Below are positions 1 to 33,821 of a stretch of DNA of 35,613 bases, piece by piece. Each line of letters begins with the position of its first letter. Position 1 is the first letter of the stretch. The notes under the pieces were generated by a model. That model had not been told where the DNA came from, searched no databases, and saw only the letters and a list, made by a program, of their open reading frames with translations. The position numbers and the translations under genes were made by a program. The stretch spans positions 1 to 35,613 of the forward strand of contig RFHU01000040.1 of the NCBI GenBank assembly GCA_003695705.1, given 5' to 3'. This stretch comes from Planctomycetota bacterium. GTDB lineage: Bacteria; Planctomycetota; J058.

Positions 1-270
1 CAGGCAGCCTCCTTCCAGCGTCCCCTCGGAGAGTTCGGCGTTGCGGTGGAGGCAGCGGTCGCGCAAGGCGTGCGGCGCGCCGTCGGGGCCGCGGAACAGG
101 GCGAGCGCCTCTTCGAGGACCACCCGGCCCAGGACCTGTCCGGGTTGGAGCTCCGCGGAGGTGCAGGCGACGTACCAATAGTCCCGCAAGAGGCCGCAGC
201 GGTCGCGGTAGAGCGGGGCGCGGGGAGTCGTCTCCGGAGCGGGCGCCGAGGGAGGGGCGAGGTCGGTCAT
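1..270 (-). CDS. Rieske [2Fe-2S] domain oxygenase-like protein, N-terminal part (cut by window edge)
   Basis: Only the first 90 codons are inside the window, read leftward from an ATG at 268-270. The segment after residue 31 (YWYVACTSAEL) is typical of the N-terminus of Rieske-type oxygenases of the aromatic-ring-hydroxylating/pheophorbide a oxygenase superfamily. DRCLHRNAELSEG at residues 71-83 supplies the first cluster ligand pair, Cys73-x-His75. The second pair (C-x-x-H) would be expected at about residue 92 and lies just outside the window, so cluster completeness cannot be judged. The substrate is unknown. The gene is head to head with the TPR/C39 gene, and its start codon overlaps an unused in-frame ATG of that gene. 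What is certain is the Rieske signature; the oxygenase assignment is family inference. Confidence 0.85.
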   Translation of the reverse strand, partial: MTDLAPPSAPAPETTPRAPLYRDRCGLLRDYWYVACTSAELQPGQVLGRVVLEEALALFRGPDGAPHALRDRCLHRNAELSEGTLEGGCL

Positions 271-427
271 GACCCCATTGGAGCCCTGGGTGCGGCCCTT
301 GGGAAGGCCGCGCCGGCGCGGAGGGCGACATGGCTCTCCTGCGCGCCGGAGGCCCTCGACGGGAGCCGCCCGGGGAGTCATGCTGCGGGAGCATTTGGAG
401 ACAGGGCGGCGCCTGGAGACCGTCGCA

Positions 428-3400
428 GTGAACAGGAACGCTCCCGCCGCCGCCACTCGATCGCGCGAGCGCGACGAAACCGTGTCCCTCGCCGAACGCG
501 AGGAGCTGCTCGAGCTCTACGGGCGCGGCCTCTACCTGCAGGCGTGGGAGGCGTCGAAGGCATACGGCCCGCTGGAGGAGTGGCGGGGCACCGAGTCCCG
601 CGTCCTCGCCGCTCGGCTCCTGCACAACCTGGGCGGGCCCCGCCGCTCCAACGCCTGGATCTTGCGCGCGTTCCGGGCCGACCCGCGCTCGCCCACCGCC
701 TGCTACTTCGGCCACCGCGCGCTCTTCTACTCGCGGGGGCCGCTGGAGGCGTGGCGGAGCATGCAGTGCGCCTCGTCGGTCGTCGAAGGGTTCGACGACG
801 ACCAGCGCGCGGACTGGTACGCCTTCGAGGCCACGGTCCTCTCCTGCCTGCGCGACTTCGAGCCGGCGGAGCAGAGCATGGCTCGGGCGTTGGAGGCCGC
901 TCCGGACCGCTCCTGGGTCCACGTGGAGCGCAGCGGGCTGCTTGCGCGCCAGGACCGGCATGGGGAGGCGTTGCAAGCCCTGCGACGGGCGCTCGAGCTC
1001 CGGCCTTGGTACCGGCCGGCCGTGCAGTCGCTGGCCCACGACCTCGTGCAGCAGAACCGGATCGACGAGGCCCTCGCCCTCCTCGCGGAGGCCTGCGAGC
1101 GCTTGGAATCCTGCCACGTCATCGCTCAGCGGGCCCAGCTGCTCGTCGAACTCGGACGCTACGAGGAGGCGCGGGAGGTCTGGGCTCGCTACGAGGGCCA
1201 CGCTCCCCTCCTGGAGGAGAAGGGCAAGCGGTGGCTTCGGGCCAACCTCGCCGACGTCCACTACCTGTGCGGGGACCTAGAGGCGGCCATCGAATGGAGC
1301 GAGGGAGCGGGGGGCTGGCACCAGCAGGTGGCGCGCAATACGGCGTACTGCCCCGACGGTCGGCGCACGCTGCTCGAGGTGGGCTTCGTGCTCCAGCACC
1401 ACCGCACCTGCGGTCCGGCCAGTCTGAGCATGCTCTGCGACTACTGGGACATGCCCGTCGATCAGCTCGAGCTGGCGGCCGAGATCTGTTACGACGGCAC
1501 GACCAACCTCAGCGAACGCCGCTGGGCGGAGGGCCACGGCTGGGTGGTTCGCGAGTTCACCCTCAACTGGCGCGACGCCGTGGCGCTCGTCGACCGTGGG
1601 GTGCCCTTTGCCCTCTGCACCACCGAACCCACCAGCGCGCACCTCCAGATCGTCATGGGCTACGACGAGCGGCGGGAGACCTTTCTCGTCCGTGATCCCG
1701 GGCAGCGCTTGCATCAGGAGTTCCTCGCCGATCGGACGCTGGCGCGTTACCGTTCGACCGGTCCGCGTTGCATGGTGCTGGTTCCCTCCGCCGAGGCCGA
1801 GCGGCTCTCGGGGCTGAAGCTCCTCGACGAAGAGCTCTACGACTTGGTCTACCGCCTCGAAGGCGCCCTGGCCGACCATCGCCGGGAGGAGGCCGAGGAG
1901 GCCTTCGCCGAGCTCGCCCGGGCCGCGCCCGGGCACCGGATCGTGTTGACGGCGGAGCGGAACTTGTCCCTCTACGACATGGACACCGCGCGGACGCTCG
2001 CCGCGACCGACGCCCTCTTGGAGCGCTACCCGGAGGACGGCATCTTCGAGCTGCGCAAGCTCGGGTTGCTCGAGCGCCTCGGGCGTCGCGAAGAGCTGCT
2101 TGCCCTTCTGCAGGATGCCGCTGCGCGGGAGGGGGCCGACCCTGCGTTTCGGGAGCGGCTCGCCTGCGAGCTGCTCGCCGACGCGCGCCGGCACGGAGAG
2201 GCGAGGACCCTCCTGCGCCGCGCCATGCACCGGCGACCCGTCGCCGCGGTGAACCTGCACACCCTCGCCGACCTCCTCGGCAGCCAGCGTCGTTTCGCCG
2301 AGGCCTTGCCGCTCTACCGCTTCGCGGCTTGCCTCGAGCACAAGCACGAGCGCTACTCGCGCAGCTACTTCTGCGCGGCCCGCTACGCGGGCCGGGTCGA
2401 GGAGGGGCTGGACTTCTTGCGCGACCGCGTGGAGCGCTACGGAGAGCAGTCGAGTCAGCCCCTCCAGACCTTGGTCTGGGCCTACGACGCCCTGGACCGC
2501 GCGGAGGACGCCCGGAAGGCCATCGAGCGTGGGCTCGAGTTGCGGCCCGACGACGGGGAGCTGTTGCTCTTCGTCGCGGAGGAGTTCGGACGGAGAGGGG
2601 AGCTGTCGCGTGCCCGGGAGCTGCTCGGGCGGGCCGAGGGACGCGTCGCCCGGATCGCCTGGCTGCGGACGGCCGCCCTGGTGGCGCGCCTCGAGGCGCA
2701 GCCGCGGGAGGCCATCGAGCGCTGGCGAGAAGTCGTCCACGCCGACCCCCTGAGCGTGGAGGCGCACGCAGAGCTCGCCGGACTGCTGGCCGAGACGGAG
2801 GGGCGCGCCGCGGCCGTCGAGCACCTACTCGAGGTGCAGCGGCAGCAACCCCACAACCAGGTCCTGCTCAAGCAGCTCCTCGGCTGGTTCCGCGAAGGCG
2901 ACGAGGAGCGGCGCGAGGCGGTGGTGCGGCAAATGATCGCCAACAACCCTCGCGACCCCTGGGCCTGGCGCGAGCTGGCCGTGGTGCTCGGGGACCGCCG
3001 CCGCTTCGCCGAGGCGCACGAGGCCCTCGACGAGGCCCTGCGGCTCGACCCGCACTCCTGCGCCGCCTACGGGATCCTGGGCGACCTCCATCGCAAGGCG
3101 GGGGAACTCGAGGAAGCCCGCGCGGCGTTCCAGCAGGCGTTGCTCCTCGACATCGACTACCCCTTCGCCATCGAGCGCCTGGTGCGTTGTTGCGAGCGCC
3201 CCGAGCATCGGCAGGAGGCCCTCGCCTTCCTCGGCGAAGAGCTGGGTCGGCAGCGCGTCTACGGCGCGGCCCTGTTGGCGATCTACGAGGAGTTTCGTGG
3301 CGCGGGCGACCCCGAGGAGGTCCTCGTCTTGCTGCGCGCGGGTCGCGAGGCCTTCCCGGAGCTCTGGCAGTCGTGGTCGGCGCTCGTCGGCCAGCTCGGC

Positions 3401-5437
3401 GACATGGGGCGCCTCGACGATGCTCTGGAGGTCGCCGAAGAGTCTCTGCGCCGTTTTCCCTTCAAGAGCCAGGTGCGCCGCGACCTCGCCTGGGTGCACC
3501 GGTTGCGCGGTGACGACGAGGCCGAGGTGGCGACCCTCGAGCGCTTGCTCGTGGTCGATCCCGCCGAGCGCAGCACGGTGCGCGTTCTCGCGGGCGCCCA
3601 CCTGCGTCGCGGCCGCTTCGCCGAGGCGCGCGCGCTTCTCGAGCCCGAGGTGGCGCGCGCGCCCTTCGACGCAAACCTGCGCAACCTGCTGGCGCAGGTG
3701 CGCTGGGAGGTCGGCGATCGGGAGGCCGCCCTCGAGGAGCAAGAGCAGGCCCTGCGCATCGATCCCCACGGGCCCGGCGGAGGGTGGGCCCGCCTCGAGG
3801 GCTGGGCGACGGCGCTCGGGGTGCCCGAGCGCCCCCTGGCCCTGGCGCGCGAGCTGTGCGCAGCGAGGCCGCGCGACGCGCAGGCGTGGCTGCGCGTCGC
3901 GCGCATGACGCCGCGCGGGCGAGAGGACGATTGCCTGGCGGCCCTGGACCGTGCCCTGGAGATCGACCCGCACCTCGCCGAGGCCTACGACGAGCGCGCC
4001 GAGCGACTCGCCAGCGCCGGCGATCACGAGGAAGCCCTCGCGGCCTGCGAGCCGCCGGCCTTCTCCGAAGGACCGCCGCTGATCCTGCGCGGCCGTCGGG
4101 CCTGGGTGTTGGCCCAGAGGGGAGATCGCCGGGAGGCGATCGCGGCCATGCGCAGCGTCCTGGAGGGGACTCCGACCTACTACTGGGGCTGGCTGCGGCT
4201 CTCCGACTGGTGCCGCGCGGAAGGCGACGACGAGGGGCACCTGGAGGCGGCCCGAGGGCTCGTGCGTTTGGCGCCGCACGACGACCTGGCGCTGTCGCAC
4301 CTGGGCTCGGCGCTCCTGCGCACGGGCGACGAGCGGGGCGCCCGACAGGCCTTCGCGCGCGCTCTGGAGCACGCCCCGACGGCGTTCTTCGCGGGGACGC
4401 GCCTGGCCGACATGCTCTGCGCGGAGGGCGACTTCGACGAGTCCGAGCGAATCCTCGTCCGCCTGGCGGAGGCCTACCCGCGCGACGAGGACGTGTGGGA
4501 GCGGGTAGTTTCCCTGGAGGCAGCGCGGGGGCGAAGGAAGGAGGCGCTGTCCGCTCTGGCCCGCCTGGCGCGTGCCCTGAGCGAGGACGGGCGCCCTTTG
4601 GAGCGCGCCGCGGAGAGGCTGTGCAAGCGGGGCTGGAGTCGCGGCGTGGCGCGCGTTCTCAACGAGGCGCTCGGCGACCCCGAGGCTTGCCCCAGGGTGG
4701 GACGCGTGTGGATTGGCGTCGAGGACCGGCTGGGGAGGCTCCTTGGCTGCGGGGAGGTCGTGGGATCCCTCCACGGTTCGCTCGGGCGGCAGGCGGAGGT
4801 CGCCTACCTCGAGCGGCTCGCGGAGTCCGATCGCGCAGACCGCGCCGACCGCGTGGAGGCCCTGGAACGCCACGTGCGCGAGCGCGCTGCGGAGCTGCGC
4901 TCCGTCCCCGAGCTCTGGGGGACCGTCGGTTACGCCTACAACTTCCTCGGCCTCTCGGCGCGCACGCGGGAGTGGCTGGCCGACTGGAGGGAGCGCGAGG
5001 ACGCGCGGCCCTGGATGCTCACCAACCTGGCGCTGGCGTACCTCGAGCACGGCGACGTCCACGGCGCGCGGGAGGTCCTCGAGGGAGCGCTGGCGCTCCC
5101 GCCCGACCACACCACGCACCTGCACTCCGTCCTGCTCGGTTTCGAGCGCGCCCTGGACGGCGAGGTCGACGCGGCGGCGGAGCTCCTCCGCGCAGGCGAC
5201 GGCCAGGAGCTGGGGCGCTTCTACGGCTTCGTGCACCTGCTGGGCAAGTCGCTCCTCGCCGGCGATCCCGCCGCCGCGCGGCAGGGCTTCGCTCCCGCCC
5301 GCGAGCTCTACCCGGGCTTCGCCGGCGACCGCTCCGCGGCCTTCGCGCACCGCCGTGCGGCCTGGCGCTGCGCGGCGGGGCCGCTCGGCGTGCTGTGGTT
5401 CCTGTGGGAGTGGCTGGCGGCCAAGTGGCAGCGTTGA
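428..5437 (+). CDS. Giant TPR-repeat protein with an internal C39-like cysteine peptidase domain
   Basis: The protein has 1669 residues from a GTG at 428, which has a GGAG nine bases upstream. The frame is open back to ATGs at 269 and 380, but that stretch is Arg/Gly/Pro-rich and lacks a well-placed ribosome site. Residues about 10-310 are TPR-like helix pairs with A-x8-P spacing. Residues about 320-450 resemble a papain-like peptidase of family C39: Cys328 in HHRTCGPASLSML, His405 in AHLQIVMGYDE and Asp423 in VRDPG form a plausible triad. The rest, to residue 1650, is an almost continuous TPR solenoid. The last 20 residues are Trp-rich and hydrophobic. There is no clear signal peptide. C39 peptidases often cleave after double-Gly in leader peptides, but no transporter or leader-peptide gene is visible, so the substrate is unknown. 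It converges with the GH3 gene, nine bases apart. Confidence 0.85.
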   Translation: MNRNAPAAATRSRERDETVSLAEREELLELYGRGLYLQAWEASKAYGPLEEWRGTESRVLAARLLHNLGGPRRSNAWILRAFRADPRSPTACYFGHRALFYSRGPLEAWRSMQCASSVVEGFDDDQRADWYAFEATVLSCLRDFEPAEQSMARALEAAPDRSWVHVERSGLLARQDRHGEALQALRRALELRPWYRPAVQSLAHDLVQQNRIDEALALLAEACERLESCHVIAQRAQLLVELGRYEEAREVWARYEGHAPLLEEKGKRWLRANLADVHYLCGDLEAAIEWSEGAGGWHQQVARNTAYCPDGRRTLLEVGFVLQHHRTCGPASLSMLCDYWDMPVDQLELAAEICYDGTTNLSERRWAEGHGWVVREFTLNWRDAVALVDRGVPFALCTTEPTSAHLQIVMGYDERRETFLVRDPGQRLHQEFLADRTLARYRSTGPRCMVLVPSAEAERLSGLKLLDEELYDLVYRLEGALADHRREEAEEAFAELARAAPGHRIVLTAERNLSLYDMDTARTLAATDALLERYPEDGIFELRKLGLLERLGRREELLALLQDAAAREGADPAFRERLACELLADARRHGEARTLLRRAMHRRPVAAVNLHTLADLLGSQRRFAEALPLYRFAACLEHKHERYSRSYFCAARYAGRVEEGLDFLRDRVERYGEQSSQPLQTLVWAYDALDRAEDARKAIERGLELRPDDGELLLFVAEEFGRRGELSRARELLGRAEGRVARIAWLRTAALVARLEAQPREAIERWREVVHADPLSVEAHAELAGLLAETEGRAAAVEHLLEVQRQQPHNQVLLKQLLGWFREGDEERREAVVRQMIANNPRDPWAWRELAVVLGDRRRFAEAHEALDEALRLDPHSCAAYGILGDLHRKAGELEEARAAFQQALLLDIDYPFAIERLVRCCERPEHRQEALAFLGEELGRQRVYGAALLAIYEEFRGAGDPEEVLVLLRAGREAFPELWQSWSALVGQLGDMGRLDDALEVAEESLRRFPFKSQVRRDLAWVHRLRGDDEAEVATLERLLVVDPAERSTVRVLAGAHLRRGRFAEARALLEPEVARAPFDANLRNLLAQVRWEVGDREAALEEQEQALRIDPHGPGGGWARLEGWATALGVPERPLALARELCAARPRDAQAWLRVARMTPRGREDDCLAALDRALEIDPHLAEAYDERAERLASAGDHEEALAACEPPAFSEGPPLILRGRRAWVLAQRGDRREAIAAMRSVLEGTPTYYWGWLRLSDWCRAEGDDEGHLEAARGLVRLAPHDDLALSHLGSALLRTGDERGARQAFARALEHAPTAFFAGTRLADMLCAEGDFDESERILVRLAEAYPRDEDVWERVVSLEAARGRRKEALSALARLARALSEDGRPLERAAERLCKRGWSRGVARVLNEALGDPEACPRVGRVWIGVEDRLGRLLGCGEVVGSLHGSLGRQAEVAYLERLAESDRADRADRVEALERHVRERAAELRSVPELWGTVGYAYNFLGLSARTREWLADWREREDARPWMLTNLALAYLEHGDVHGAREVLEGALALPPDHTTHLHSVLLGFERALDGEVDAAAELLRAGDGQELGRFYGFVHLLGKSLLAGDPAAARQGFAPARELYPGFAGDRSAAFAHRRAAWRCAAGPLGVLWFLWEWLAAKWQR

Positions 5438-22059: not shown

Positions 22060-23778
22060 TCAGATCTCGTTGATCGCCGGGTTGATGCTCATGAGGTATT
22101 CGGCGTTGGTGCGGAAGTTCCTCAGCTTGGACTTGAGGAGTTCCATGGCCTCCACCGGGTTCATTTCGTTGAGCACCTTGCGCAGCACCCAGATGCGCTT
22201 CAGCTCTTCGGGGTCGCAAAGGAGCTCTTCCTTGCGGGTCCCAGAGCGTCGGACTTCGATGGCCGGCCACACTCGGCGGTCGGCGAGGGTCCGGTCGAGG
22301 TGGAGTTCCATGTTCCCGGTGCCCTTGAACTCTTCGAAGATGACCTCGTCCATGCGCGAGTTCGTCTCGATGAGGGCGGTGGCGATGATCGTCAGGGAGC
22401 CGCCGAACTCGATGTTCCGTGCGGCCCCGAAGAAGCGCTTCGGCCCCTTGAGGGCGTTGGCGTCCACGCCGCCCGAGAGGATCTTGCCCGAGTGCGGGAC
22501 CTCGGTGTTGTAGGCCCGCCCGAGCCGCGTGATCGAGTCGAGGAGGATGACCACGTCGCGCCCGTATTCGACCATGCGCTTGGCCTTGTTGATGACCATT
22601 TCGGCCACCTGCACGTGGCGGGCTGCTTGCTCGTCGAAGGTCGAGGCGACCACCTCCGCGGGCACGGTGCGTTGCATGTCCGTGACCTCCTCGGGGCGCT
22701 CGTCGATGAGGAGGATGATCAGGTAGCACTCGGGGTTGCCGCGGACGATGGCGTTGGCCAGCTTCTGCAGGAGGACGGTCTTGCCCGTGCGCGGCGGCGC
22801 GACGATGAGCCCCCGCTGGCCCTTGCCGATGGGGGTCAGCAGGTCCCAGATGCGCATTTCGAGCTGGCCGGGGTCCTCGGGGAGGATCGAGAGTCGTTCC
22901 TCGGGGTAGAGGGGGGTGAGGTCGTCGAAGTGCGGGATCTCGGCGAGGCGCTCGGGGTCGTCGCCGTTGATGCTCTGCACGTTGGCGAGGGGGAGGTACT
23001 TGGCGCCGTCCTTGAGCGGGGCGATCTCGCCGCGCACCAGGTTGCCCGTGCGCAGGCCGTAGCGGCGGACGAGCGAGGGCGGGACGTAGATGTTGTCGGG
23101 GCTGGGCATGTAGCTGTAGTGGTGGCTGCGCAGCCAGCCGAAGCCCTGCTCGAGGATCTCCAAGACGCCCTCGCCGTAGGTCGTCCCGTTTCGGTTCCGA
23201 CGGACCAACTCGAAAATGAGCTGATGCTTCTTGAGGCCGGTGAAGTCGACGACGCCGTACTCGCGCGCGACTTGCCACAGCTCTTTGACGCTCAGCTTCT
23301 GCAGCTCCGAAACGTCGAGTTCCCGCCCCTCGGGGAGGGGGACGCCGGAGGCAGCCTCCGGTGCCGCGTCGGTCGGGGTCTCCGCTGGGGCCGCTTCGCC
23401 CTCGCCGGCCTCGTCGCGGGCTCGTCGGGTGCGGTTTCGTCCGCGGCCTCGCCCGCGTCCGCGTCCGCGTCCGCGGGCTTCGGCGTCTTCGCTGGCCGAG
23501 TCGCCGTCTCCCCGGCGTCCGCGGCGACCGCGAGCCCGGGCCTCGGTGTCTTCGCTGGCCGAGTCTTCGTCTCCCCGGCGTCCGCGGCGCCCGCGGCTCT
23601 TCTTGGGGGTGGACGGCGCCGCTTCGGCCTCTGGGGGGGCGTCGGCGTCGTCCCCTTCCGGCGGAGTGAGGGTCTCCGTGGCGGCGCCGGCGGCCGCGCG
23701 ATCGGCCTTGCGGGCGCGAGGAGAAGACTTGCGCTTAGCGCTGCGGCTCGACGAACTCTTTCCAGAATCGCTTGACAT
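22060..23778 (-). CDS. rho: Transcription termination factor Rho with long basic N-terminal extension
   Basis: The product has 572 residues against about 420 in E. coli. The hexameric RNA-dependent ATPase releases transcripts. Residues 1-150 form a low-complexity, charged extension including two 21-residue copies of RGRRGRRGD-x-DSASED and an RG tract. The Rho N-domain starts at about 154 ([20 protein letters not shown]). The RNA-binding cold-shock fold has [18 protein letters not shown]. Walker A is [12 protein letters not shown] with Lys333; Walker B is [16 protein letters not shown]; the R-loop segment is [20 protein letters not shown]. The ATG at 23778 lies inside the 3' end of coaE (44-base overlap) with GAGG nine bases upstream. 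Such extensions in other phyla strengthen RNA binding or promote condensation; that role here is inferred. Confidence 0.97.
23470..23595 (-). repeat. Two tandem 63-base repeats inside rho
   Basis: Two consecutive 21-codon units (residues 62-82 and 83-103 of Rho) encode [20 protein letters not shown] and [21 protein letters not shown] run of alternating Arg-Gly codons follows. The copies differ at a few bases, as expected for an older slippage or unequal-crossing-over duplication. Confidence 0.85.
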
Positions 23779-24364
23779 GGGCCATCGCCTCGTCGGGGCT
23801 GCCGTCGTTGGGGAGGACGGCGTCGGCTTGGGCTCGCTTGGAGTCCAGGGGTTCTTGGTGTGCCTCGCGGCGGTCGACTTCTTCGGGGTTCCAGCCGCGC
23901 TGGGCGCGAGCGCGCCGGCGGCGGACCTCGGCGGGGACGTCCACGAAGACGCGCAGGTCGCAGCTCCGGTCGAGTCCCATGCGCTCGGCCACGGCGGCGT
24001 CGAGCACGACCACCCTGCGCGGGCGGTCCTCGGGGGTGCGCCGGGACTCGAGGCGTTCGTGCACCCAGCGCGCAATGAGGGGATGGACGATGGCTTCGAG
24101 GCGGGCGAGGGCGGCCGGATCGGAGAACACCCGCGCGCCAAGCGCGTCGCGGTCGACTTGCCCTTCGGGATCGAGGACCTCGGGTCCAAAGGCCTCGAGG
24201 AGGCGGGCGACGACCTCGGGCCGACGCAGGGCTTCGTGCCCGAGGGCGTCGCAGTCCACGACCTCGGCCCCGAGTTCGGCGAGGGCTCTTGCGACGGAAG
24301 ATTTGCCGCTCGCGACGCCCCCCTGTACGAGGATGGTCAGCGGAAGGCGGCCGGCTGCGCACAC
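23735..24364 (-). CDS. coaE: Dephospho-CoA kinase
   Basis: This enzyme catalyses the last step of coenzyme A synthesis, phosphorylating the 3' hydroxyl of dephospho-CoA with ATP. It has 209 residues from the GTG at 24364; a TTG at 24370 would add two. Neither has a convincing Shine-Dalgarno. The P-loop is [10 protein letters not shown], followed by [12 protein letters not shown] (the D-x-D substrate motif) and the [12 protein letters not shown] segment of the family. The C-terminal helix [10 protein letters not shown] is normal. The 3' end overlaps rho by 44 bases, so the two genes are surely co-transcribed. A good promoter lies about 80 bases upstream. Confidence 0.93.
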
Positions 24365-24447
24365 GGGCAAGGCGATCTCGGAGGGGGTCGAAGGGGGGAG
24401 CCGCAGGGGTCCTCGGCGGACGGCGCGCCTGCGGCGGAAGTGCAGTG

Positions 24448-24664: not shown

Positions 24665-26008
24665 ATGGCCAAGGGCGGCAGCAACACCGTCTACCTCGTG
24701 GGCCTGATCTTCGCGATCCTGGTCTCCCTCGTCCTGTTGGGCGTCTGCTACAAGCTCAACGAAGACCTGACCGCTCAGGAGGCCAAGGTTCGCTCGGCCG
24801 AGCGGAAGCTCGAAGACGAGAAGAAGCGCGTCAAGGAGTTGGCCGCCGAGAACAAGTCCATCAAGGAGCTCGTCACCGGCGATCCGACCGCGCAGTTCAG
24901 CAAGGATCACTACGACGACACGATCCTCAAGGAAGCGAACAAGACGCTGCAGGACATCCTCAGCGAGGAGTGGATCGCCACCGACGACTGGAAGAACATC
25001 CAGGATCCCGACGTGAAGGCGATCTGGGAGAAGATCGCCAGCTACCGGGGCGAGATGGACCACTTCCGCAGCCTCAACCAGCTCAGCAAGGAGCTGATGG
25101 AGCAGCTCAAGGCGGTGATCCACCTGATCCCTCGCCTCCGCTACGAGCGCATTCGGGCCAACGAGCAGGTGCGTTCCATCCGCGATCAGATGGACAAGAT
25201 GCGCGCCGCCAAGGACAAGGAGATCGACGACCTGCGGGCCCGGCTGACCGCCGCGGACGACCAGATCCTCGAGCAGGCGCGCAAGTACGACCAGGAGAAG
25301 AAGGTCCTGCAAGACGACATCGCGAAGCTGCGCGAGGAGAACAAGCGGATCACCCGCGACAACGCCTTCGTGGTGGCGCGCCTCGAGAGCGAGAAGGCCC
25401 AGCTCCTCGCCAAGATCAAGGACCTCACCAAGAAGGAGCAGCGGACCTTCACGGCGAACGCCAAGCCGGATGGCGAAGTCGTCTACGCCGATGCGAACCT
25501 CGGCTACGCCTGGATCGACCTCGGCAGCAACCACGGGCTGCGGCGGAACACCCAGTTCCACGTCTACCAGTACATCAAGGGCGGTCGGCAGAAGGTGAAG
25601 GGCGTGATCGAGGTGCGCCGGGTGGAGCCCGACATGAGCCAGTGCGCCATCCTGCTCGAGCAAGAGGTCAAGGATCCCGTGACCGGCGAGAAGGTGGTCG
25701 TGCCCGATCCCAACGACCCCATCGTCAAGGGCGACCTGATCCGCAACCCCTTCTTCGACAAGGACGAGCAGAAGGTCTTCGTCTTCTTCGGCAGCAAGAC
25801 GCACAACGGCACCTACAACCTGGCCGAGATGAAGCGCAAGGTGGCCGAGTTCGGCGGCAAGGTGGAGAGCAAGGTCACCACCGAGACGGACTTCGTCGTC
25901 GTGCTCGACGAGGAGGACGAGGACTTCCGCGAGAAGTTCGAGCTCGCCACCCAGTTCGGCGTGATCTTCATGCGCGAGGACGAGTTCCTCGAGTACATCG
26001 GTCGCTGA
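24665..26008 (+). CDS. Membrane-anchored coiled-coil protein with C-terminal BRCT-like domain
   Basis: The product has 447 residues from an ATG with AAGGA upstream. Residues 9-29 (VYLVGLIFAILVSLVLLGVCY) are hydrophobic: a signal anchor, shown here as two parts VYLVGLIFAILV and SLVLLGVCY. Charged heptad-rich helices fill about 30-90 and 150-265. Residues about 275-365 form a beta-rich domain (GEVVYADANLGYAWIDLGSN, then RRNTQFHVYQYIKGG) of a type I associate with planctomycetal proteins. Residues 370-447 resemble a BRCT domain of DNA-ligase type: KVFVFFGSKTHN, AEFGGKVESKVTTETDFVVV and ATQFGVIFMREDEFLEYIG. BRCT domains normally act in DNA repair, which is odd for a protein whose single anchor predicts a C-terminus outside the cytoplasm. 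Codon use matches its neighbours. Function unknown; architecture confident, BRCT call by pattern. Confidence 0.8.
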   Translation: MAKGGSNTVYLVGLIFAILVSLVLLGVCYKLNEDLTAQEAKVRSAERKLEDEKKRVKELAAENKSIKELVTGDPTAQFSKDHYDDTILKEANKTLQDILSEEWIATDDWKNIQDPDVKAIWEKIASYRGEMDHFRSLNQLSKELMEQLKAVIHLIPRLRYERIRANEQVRSIRDQMDKMRAAKDKEIDDLRARLTAADDQILEQARKYDQEKKVLQDDIAKLREENKRITRDNAFVVARLESEKAQLLAKIKDLTKKEQRTFTANAKPDGEVVYADANLGYAWIDLGSNHGLRRNTQFHVYQYIKGGRQKVKGVIEVRRVEPDMSQCAILLEQEVKDPVTGEKVVVPDPNDPIVKGDLIRNPFFDKDEQKVFVFFGSKTHNGTYNLAEMKRKVAEFGGKVESKVTTETDFVVVLDEEDEDFREKFELATQFGVIFMREDEFLEYIGR

Positions 26009-31659: not shown

Positions 31660-33759
31660 TCAGCCCGATTCGTGGAATGGGTTTCGGTGGGGATCGAGTT
31701 CTTCGGAGGTGGTCAGCTCGCCGAGGGAGAAGTCCTGTCCGAGGGCCTTGCCGATCTTGTCGCGGCTCCAGGTGCCTGTCTTCTCCGCGTGGCGCACTGC
31801 CTCTCGGGTCCACTGCGCGCCCGAGGCTTCGTCCCCCGAGTCGGCGAGGTCGAATTCGTCCACCGCGACGACTTTCCGCAGTCCGGTGGTGAGGAGAACC
31901 TGCTTTTGGACGCGCGTCACCGCGTCGACGAGCGCTCGCGGAGAAGAGGGGCGAATGGCCGGCGACTTGGAGAGGAGCTGCAGGATGAGCTCGGCGAGGG
32001 GGGTGGGGACGGCGAGCTCTCGCGGCGGAGGGGGCGGCTTCTGCTTGAGGTGCAAGAGGAGGGTTTCGCGGGGGTCGCGGCCGCGGAAGGGCGGTTGTCC
32101 GCAGACCATTTCGTAGAGCAGTACCCCGATGGCGTACATGTCGCTGGCCAGGTCTGGCTCGCGCTTCTTCTCTTGCATCACCTCGGGTGCCAAGTAGCTC
32201 GGGTGCCCGAAGTACATGCCGTACTGGCCGTAGTTCGCCGCCAGCGCCGAGGCGCTGGCGAAGCCCAGGTCCGCCAAGCGCGCCTTCCCTGCCTCGGTGA
32301 CGTAGACCTTCTCGGGGCGAATGTCTCCGTGCGAGAGGGTGCGCCCGTCCGCTATGGCCGCGAGGGCCTGGGCGAGGGTCTTGGTGATGCCCAGCGCCTT
32401 GGAGAAGTTCAGGCGGCCCTCGGCGCGGAGGACCGAGCGGAGGGTGCGCCCCTCCGCGCGGTCCATGACCACGACGTCGCGGCCGCCAACCCGGACCACG
32501 TGCCGGACGTTGACCAAGGTGGAGTGCTCCACCGACTGGGCGCGGCGGAGCTGGCCGAGGATCTGCTCGAGCAGGTCGGGGTAGCGCTCGAAGCGGCGCG
32601 TCACCACCTTCACGACCCGCTCGGTCGGGTCGCCCTCCACCCAGCCGCGGTAGGAGGCGCCGACGGGGCCGCGCGCCAGCTTCTCGCCTAGCTTGACCTT
32701 GACCTGCGCGTGGGGGTCGAAGGGCTCCTGCGCGGCGGCCTGGGCGGGCTCGGGCTCGGGTTCGGCCTCGGCCTCGGGGCGAAGCTCTTGCTGCTCGAGG
32801 AGCCCGCTGGCGTAGAGCTCGTCGAGGGCGGGGGTTTCGACCACGGCGGAGGCCTTGACGACCTTCGACTCCGACCAGTTCTCCGGGGGCTTTGCGCGGA
32901 CGGCGGCTTCGCGTTCCCAGCTCCCGCTGGACACGGTGGCCCGGTCCACCGGGAAGGGGCCGGGCTTGCCCAAAAGTTCGTAGAGCGAGTTGACGACGGC
33001 CATTCCGTCCGCGTAGCGCTCGGCCGGGCGCTTCGCGGTCATGCGCAGCATCCAGCGCGCGAGGCTGGGGGTCACCTCGGAGCTGTGCGTGGGCGGCGGC
33101 AGAGGACGCTCGAGGTGCGCGTGGAGCTGCGCCGTGGGATCGCCGGGGAAGGGGAGCTCCCCGTTGACGAGCTGGTAGAAGAGCACGCCGAGGGCGTAGA
33201 CGTCGGTTCGCGTGGTCGGCTGGTAGAGGCCTTCCTGAATCGCTTCGGGAGCCAAGTAGCCGGGATGCCCGAAGGTGAGTCCGTACTGGCCGTACCCTGC
33301 GGCAAGGCATGAGGCGCGAAACTGGCCCAGGTCGAGCACCGCGGCGCCCGCCTGGGGGTCGAAGGCGACCTTCTCGGGACGGAGGTCCCCCACGGCCAGG
33401 CCGCGCTGGTGGGCGTGGGCGAGGCACAGGCCCACGTCGCGGGCGATGCGCAGAGCGAGTTGGACGTCCAACGGACGGCGCCGTTCGAGCAGACGGGCCA
33501 GGGTCTCCCCGCGCAGAGGGGCGTAGAGGACCACGTCGCGGTCTTCGTAGCGGGTGACCGCAATGGTTTCGACGGCGTTCGGGTTGCGGAAGCCGACGAA
33601 GCTGCGCAGGTCCTTGAGCACCTCCTCGAGGAGGCGCTGGTTCTGGCGGAAGCGGCGGGTGATGACCTTGGCGACTGCGTGCCGGCCGTCCGCGAGGCGC
33701 GCCGCGTAGGAGGCCCCCACGGGGCCGCGACCGAGCTTCCGTCCCAAGGCGAACTGCAC
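31660..33759 (-). CDS. Protein with two tandem Ser/Thr kinase-like domains, both atypical
   Basis: The product has 699 residues. Domain 1 covers about 1-265, domain 2 about 352-620. Both have the Gly loop (LGRKLGRGPVGASY; LGEKLARGPVGASY), the ATP-binding Lys (Lys31 in AVAKVI; VVKVV) and DLG in place of DFG. In the catalytic loop, canonical HRDLKPEN is VGDLRPEK (Asp125, Lys130) and HGDIRPEK (Asp479, Lys484): the Asp remains but the Mg-binding Asn is Lys. Both share a YGQYG-x2-FGHP activation segment and YLAPE. Each is followed by a similar tail (W-x-RE, then WS-x-x-K), so a whole unit was duplicated. The start is a GTG at 33759 without a Shine-Dalgarno; TACCCT eight bases upstream could give a leaderless message. 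Activity is uncertain. Confidence 0.85.
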   Translation of the reverse strand: MQFALGRKLGRGPVGASYAARLADGRHAVAKVITRRFRQNQRLLEEVLKDLRSFVGFRNPNAVETIAVTRYEDRDVVLYAPLRGETLARLLERRRPLDVQLALRIARDVGLCLAHAHQRGLAVGDLRPEKVAFDPQAGAAVLDLGQFRASCLAAGYGQYGLTFGHPGYLAPEAIQEGLYQPTTRTDVYALGVLFYQLVNGELPFPGDPTAQLHAHLERPLPPPTHSSEVTPSLARWMLRMTAKRPAERYADGMAVVNSLYELLGKPGPFPVDRATVSSGSWEREAAVRAKPPENWSESKVVKASAVVETPALDELYASGLLEQQELRPEAEAEPEPEPAQAAAQEPFDPHAQVKVKLGEKLARGPVGASYRGWVEGDPTERVVKVVTRRFERYPDLLEQILGQLRRAQSVEHSTLVNVRHVVRVGGRDVVVMDRAEGRTLRSVLRAEGRLNFSKALGITKTLAQALAAIADGRTLSHGDIRPEKVYVTEAGKARLADLGFASASALAANYGQYGMYFGHPSYLAPEVMQEKKREPDLASDMYAIGVLLYEMVCGQPPFRGRDPRETLLLHLKQKPPPPPRELAVPTPLAELILQLLSKSPAIRPSSPRALVDAVTRVQKQVLLTTGLRKVVAVDEFDLADSGDEASGAQWTREAVRHAEKTGTWSRDKIGKALGQDFSLGELTTSEELDPHRNPFHESG

Positions 33760-33821
33760 GCACCCAGGGTATTCCGCGAGGCGCGTGCGAACCAGCGGGG
33801 TGCGGCGCCGGCGGCGATCCC

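Follow-up and report, generated by a model that had tools for sequence, protein, structure and literature searches.

What is a BRCT domain doing at the tip of a protein that begins with a membrane anchor? BRCT domains are normally DNA-repair modules, known as nuclear or cytoplasmic units that recognize phosphates on proteins or at the ends of DNA, and the gene considered here comes from the Planctomycetota, a phylum with an unusual envelope and with cell division that is in part FtsZ-less. The gene, P0001, lies in a window (the whole stretch of DNA that was analyzed, 35,613 nucleotides) that corresponds to contig C54 of the 6.6-Mb source assembly. An earlier note, made from the letters alone, had left two options for such a protein: either its topology is inverted, so that it links DNA or the divisome to the membrane, or the BRCT fold has acquired a new role outside the cytoplasm. 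A search of the available papers found no report of an extracytoplasmic or periplasmic BRCT protein, nor of a planctomycete one.

Architecture of the P0001 protein

The P0001 frame opens with an ATG at 24665, about 8 nt downstream of a GAAGGA motif, and its stop codon ends at 26008. Its parts, together with the divergent neighboring gene, are as follows:

24665..26008, + strand: whole gene, P0001, 447 aa, an anchored coiled-coil / FlgT_C-like / BRCT protein (open frame, Shine-Dalgarno-like GAAGGA, homologs phylum-wide)
24689..24754, + strand: N-terminal membrane anchor, about residues 9-30, predicted N-in/C-out (hydropathy; flank charge with MreC and RNase Y controls)
24755..24874, + strand: first coiled-coil segment, residues 31-70 (heptad contrast p=0.02; helix in the AF2 model)
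25073..25438, + strand: main coiled coil, residues 137-258 (AF2 helix, mostly pLDDT 74-91; heptad coverage 0.99 vs 0.59 in shuffles)
25448..25750, + strand: beta-rich FlgT_C-like domain, residues ~262-362 (weak PF16538 matches; same domain after CsgG in genome G136)
25769..25999, + strand: C-terminal BRCT domain, residues 369-445 (PF00533 E=6e-7; genome scan 32 bits; hhalign 99.4% to LigA BRCT)
23735..24370, - strand: divergent neighbor, coaE by reading (open reading frame; cluster c2, found beside the family in many loci; identity by eye)

The anchor, the long coiled coil and the beta-rich domain had all been read from the sequence in the earlier note, and each of these readings held. Hydropathy of P0001 revealed the one hydrophobic segment near residues 9-30 and no second one. 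In a windowed heptad test, heptad contrast exceeded that of shuffled sequences at residues 31-70 and 137-258, as it did in 80 of the 82 family rows; a single-phase 3.5 periodicity over residues 137-258 was not significant, the windowed test being significant there. The same stretch was modeled as a single helix by AF2, in a full-length model that was built from a 3-sequence alignment and is poor at the C-terminus. No Rfam match was found at the P0001 locus, and no curated family covers the whole of a P0001-type protein.

The beta-rich middle domain is marked by the motifs DG, I-D-L-G, G-x-x-F-x-V, K-G-x-I-E-V and P-I-x-x-G-D. Weak matches to PF16538 were obtained for 13 of 17 members (best E=3.4e-4), with P0001 itself at 12.5 bits, below the Pfam gathering cut-off of 27 bits, and no PDB match was found for this domain. 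CsgG, after which the same domain stands in G136, is a secreted class. Planctomycetota also encode proteins that combine this anchor, coiled coil and FlgT_C-like domain without a BRCT (L187 in G047, L192 in G201 and L193 in G196), the gene for the first lying on the mreC contig, ~1.7 kb upstream of mreC.

A BRCT domain related to that of LigA

The BRCT call of the earlier note was likewise confirmed by sequence profiles. Residues 369-445 of P0001 scored 30.1 bits against PF00533, for which the curated cut-off is 21.3, and 56 of 61 family members matched this profile individually (best 8e-17). A PDB search with the family profile returned the BRCT domain of Thermus LigA (1L7B) at E=8e-16, followed by 1DGS and RFC1 (2EBU, 1e-12), and in many genomes the NCBI LigA model matched family members at their C-termini. 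An hhalign comparison of the family BRCT with LigA BRCTs from this phylum gave 99.4%, and controls using the middle domain or a reversed sequence gave <1%. The isolated-domain AF2 model, which was also built from a 3-sequence alignment and has a pLDDT of only ~52, shows the element order b-a-b-b-a-b-a, which is that of BRCT domains, and has a ferredoxin-like look; Foldseek on this model returned ferredoxin-like matches, none below E=0.001. Judging from the profile comparisons, the C-terminal domain of P0001 is homologous to the LigA-type BRCT. Elsewhere in the source genome there were only two further PF00533 domain matches, both within one LigA. This LigA (G000:C330), like those of several family relatives, has two tandem BRCT domains, not one.

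We then consider whether the domain is equipped to read phosphates. In BRCA1, the phosphate is held by S1655/G1656 of strand 1 and K1702 of helix 2 (PMC4728184); the prokaryotic BRCT pocket has been linked to the phosphates of DNA nicks or DNA ends, and phosphate-free protein binding is possible for eukaryotic BRCTs (PMC10504179). Scoring of LigA BRCTs from the phylum gave the pocket Thr-Gly in 16/16 cases and the Lys in 16/16. The family keeps the Gly (80/81) and has Ser/Thr in 4/81 and Lys/Arg in 6/81, with Ser/Thr and Lys/Arg together in 0/81; the combination of Ser/Thr-Gly at strand 1 with Lys in helix 2, as in the phosphate-binding LigA/RFC1/BRCA1 type, was not found in the family. The corresponding positions in P0001 are Phe375 and Lys424, the Lys thus being kept in P0001 itself. 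The mean net charge of the domain is -3.0 in the family vs +1.7 in LigA. By sequence, the Ser/Thr and Lys of the LigA-type phosphate pocket are lost from the family BRCT, which is most likely a phosphate-independent protein-protein module.

Topology of the anchor

The side of the membrane on which the BRCT domain lies was addressed by subtracting the charge of the C-terminal flank of the anchor from that of the N-terminal flank, with a single script applied to proteins from within the phylum. The positive-inside rule is a statistical one; the two controls have opposite orientations, MreC being N-in/C-out and RNase Y being N-out/C-in. The difference was +1.5 in the family (50 up, 6 down), +2.1 in MreC (13 up, 1 down) and -2.9 in RNase Y (0 up, 17 down); the family was thus distinct from RNase Y (p=4e-10) and not from MreC (p=0.5). 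The flanks of P0001 itself are weak, with one Lys on the N side and KLNEDL followed by mixed charge on the C side. Cys accounts for 0.24% of the family body vs 0.5-1.5% in neighboring genes, a shortage that is explained in part by coiled coils being Cys-poor, and there is no Cys difference between MreC and RNase Y. Since the family flank charges resemble those of MreC and are opposite to those of RNase Y, the family BRCT is probably extracytoplasmic. The domain as such is already known; its extracytoplasmic placement on a P0001-type protein would be new.

In the inverted arrangement, N-out/C-in, the BRCT would lie in the cytoplasm on a rod held in the membrane in the manner of RNase Y or ZipA, and the protein would tether DNA, LigA or the divisome to the membrane. 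This arrangement would agree with the DNA-related or cytoplasmic action of those BRCTs whose roles are known, and with the frequent position of the family gene beside polA, coaE and rho, but we consider it unlikely given flank charges that are the reverse of those of RNase Y in the same phylum, an acidic domain that has lost its phosphate pocket, and a middle domain of a type that is found fused to CsgG. Of the two options that the earlier note had left, the flank charges, the acidic domain and the pocket loss therefore favor the new extracytoplasmic role over the inverted DNA tether. With the pocket residues lost and the BRCT seemingly facing outward, it looks as though a domain of the repair type has been put to new use as a protein-binding piece of the envelope.

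Distribution and gene copies

A search with the single P0001 sequence found relatives in 87 of 98 Planctomycetota genomes. The 61-row family profile gave some match in 195/195 genomes and a match at E<1e-20 in 169/195, the threshold used for the count because LigA BRCTs and coiled coils can also match this profile; with a middle-domain profile, no member was found in several genomes of the groups f45, f74 and f80. The earlier note had asked for orthologs of the same architecture; by these counts the family is spread across nearly the whole phylum. A genome-collection scan with P0001 returned only two relatives, the nearest named relatives being Planctomycetota MAGs, and no relatives of P0001 were found on viral contigs or on plasmids.

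The source genome also encodes a divergent second copy (L198, G000:C128:720-983), a 320-aa frame with the FlgT_C-like domain, a degenerate BRCT and a short rod only. Tandem pairs of family genes occur in 16 of 58 loci. In a tree with many weak branches, the first and second tandem copies tend to cluster apart, which is consistent with an old duplication followed by losses.

Gene neighborhood

In the window, P0001 is a solitary gene flanked by coaE and by a purD on the minus strand, both identified by eye. At many loci coaE, rho and polA are oriented divergently from the family gene, and tatC, ychF, cinA or argG follows it (identities again by eye); glmU lies near it in a few. Of 58 loci, 20, from many different families, have tatC directly downstream on the same strand, its identity being supported by alignment and, at G063, by Pfam.

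Because the family gene lies directly upstream of tatC on the same strand in many loci, the protein might be a Tat-pathway accessory, that is, an envelope factor working with TatC, and the enlarged periplasmic loop of several adjacent TatCs would suit such a role. We regard this as very doubtful: genomes in which no family member was detected (f45, f80 and part of f74) nevertheless have TatC, the tatC of the source genome is on another contig, and the conserved order may be merely ancestral, since polA-coaE-rho has been kept too. A strict dependence on Tat was rejected on account of these same genomes that have TatC and no detected family member.

The enlargement concerns the first periplasmic loop of TatC, which at loci L036, L037, L038, L041, L047, L053, L054 and L079 measures 91-234 aa and is often Lys/Glu-rich, vs 23-40 aa in many other Planctomycetota and 26 aa in E. 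coli TatC.

Two further frames in the window were characterized by reading only. A long frame at 31660-33763 (- strand) contains two protein-kinase-like segments with altered-looking catalytic motifs (GDLRPEK / HGDIRPEK, DLG) and is a possible tandem pseudokinase, and a 1722-aa repeat-rich (TPR-like) frame at 269-5437 (+ strand) includes a C39-peptidase-like stretch (HHRTCGPASLSMLCDYW).

A proposed role in the envelope

Our preferred reading, to which we assign a probability of roughly 60%, is that the protein is a bitopic inner-membrane, periplasmic rod with a pocketless BRCT tip, which would serve as an envelope scaffold or tether and not as a DNA tether. The short N-terminus would remain inside and a single helix would span the membrane, while the coiled-coil rod would reach into the periplasm, bearing the FlgT_C-like beta domain and the terminal BRCT. 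At the tip, the BRCT may pair with that of a tandem paralog or second copy, clamping partner rods; alternatively, it may dock an envelope protein partner. The presence of a rod, together with the paralog pairs, suggests that the family rods dimerize. The broader proposition, that an ancient, phylum-wide BRCT has its place of action outside the cytoplasm, where it serves as an envelope scaffold or dimerization module independent of phosphate, and that BRCTs in bacteria were recruited away from DNA, seems to us slightly better than an even bet.

A part in cell-wall elongation or in division, comparable to that of MreC or FtsL, would match the shared layout of anchor, coiled coil and beta domain, and hhalign placed the middle domain on MreC with 75% probability in a local alignment of 22 columns, besides a weak FtsL match, but this role is improbable, as nearly all of the genomes have MreC itself, the alignment is limited to a short motif, and glmU in a few loci is the sole cell-wall gene in the neighborhood.

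If the scaffold or tether reading is true, a pocketless envelope BRCT in most Planctomycetota genomes would widen what the BRCT fold does, and the Planctomycetota would gain a conserved envelope component.

Comparison with known systems

The middle domain resembles the C-terminal domain of FlgT (PF16538) through matches that are weak but repeated; it differs in staying below the Pfam cut-off and in belonging to a family for which no flagellar context was seen. RNase Y, like P0001, has an N-terminal anchor followed by a long helix and gives a weak coiled-coil match, yet it shows the opposite flank-charge bias and has KH/HD domains, none of which were found in P0001. MreC shares with the family the anchor, the coiled coil, the beta domain, the flank-charge bias and a short motif; it has no BRCT, is encoded by a separate gene in the same genomes, and its profile PF04085 is absent among the family matches listed. 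The LigA-type BRCT (PF00533; 1L7B, 1DGS) is related to the family BRCT over the whole domain, the two having in common GG-x-V, T-D-[FY]-[VL]-V, an A in helix 2 and a final E-x-x-[LF]. In LigA, however, the domain sits on a ligase and its phosphate pocket has both the Thr and the lysine of G-S-K, whereas the family BRCT is acidic, is without these residues and sits on a membrane rod.
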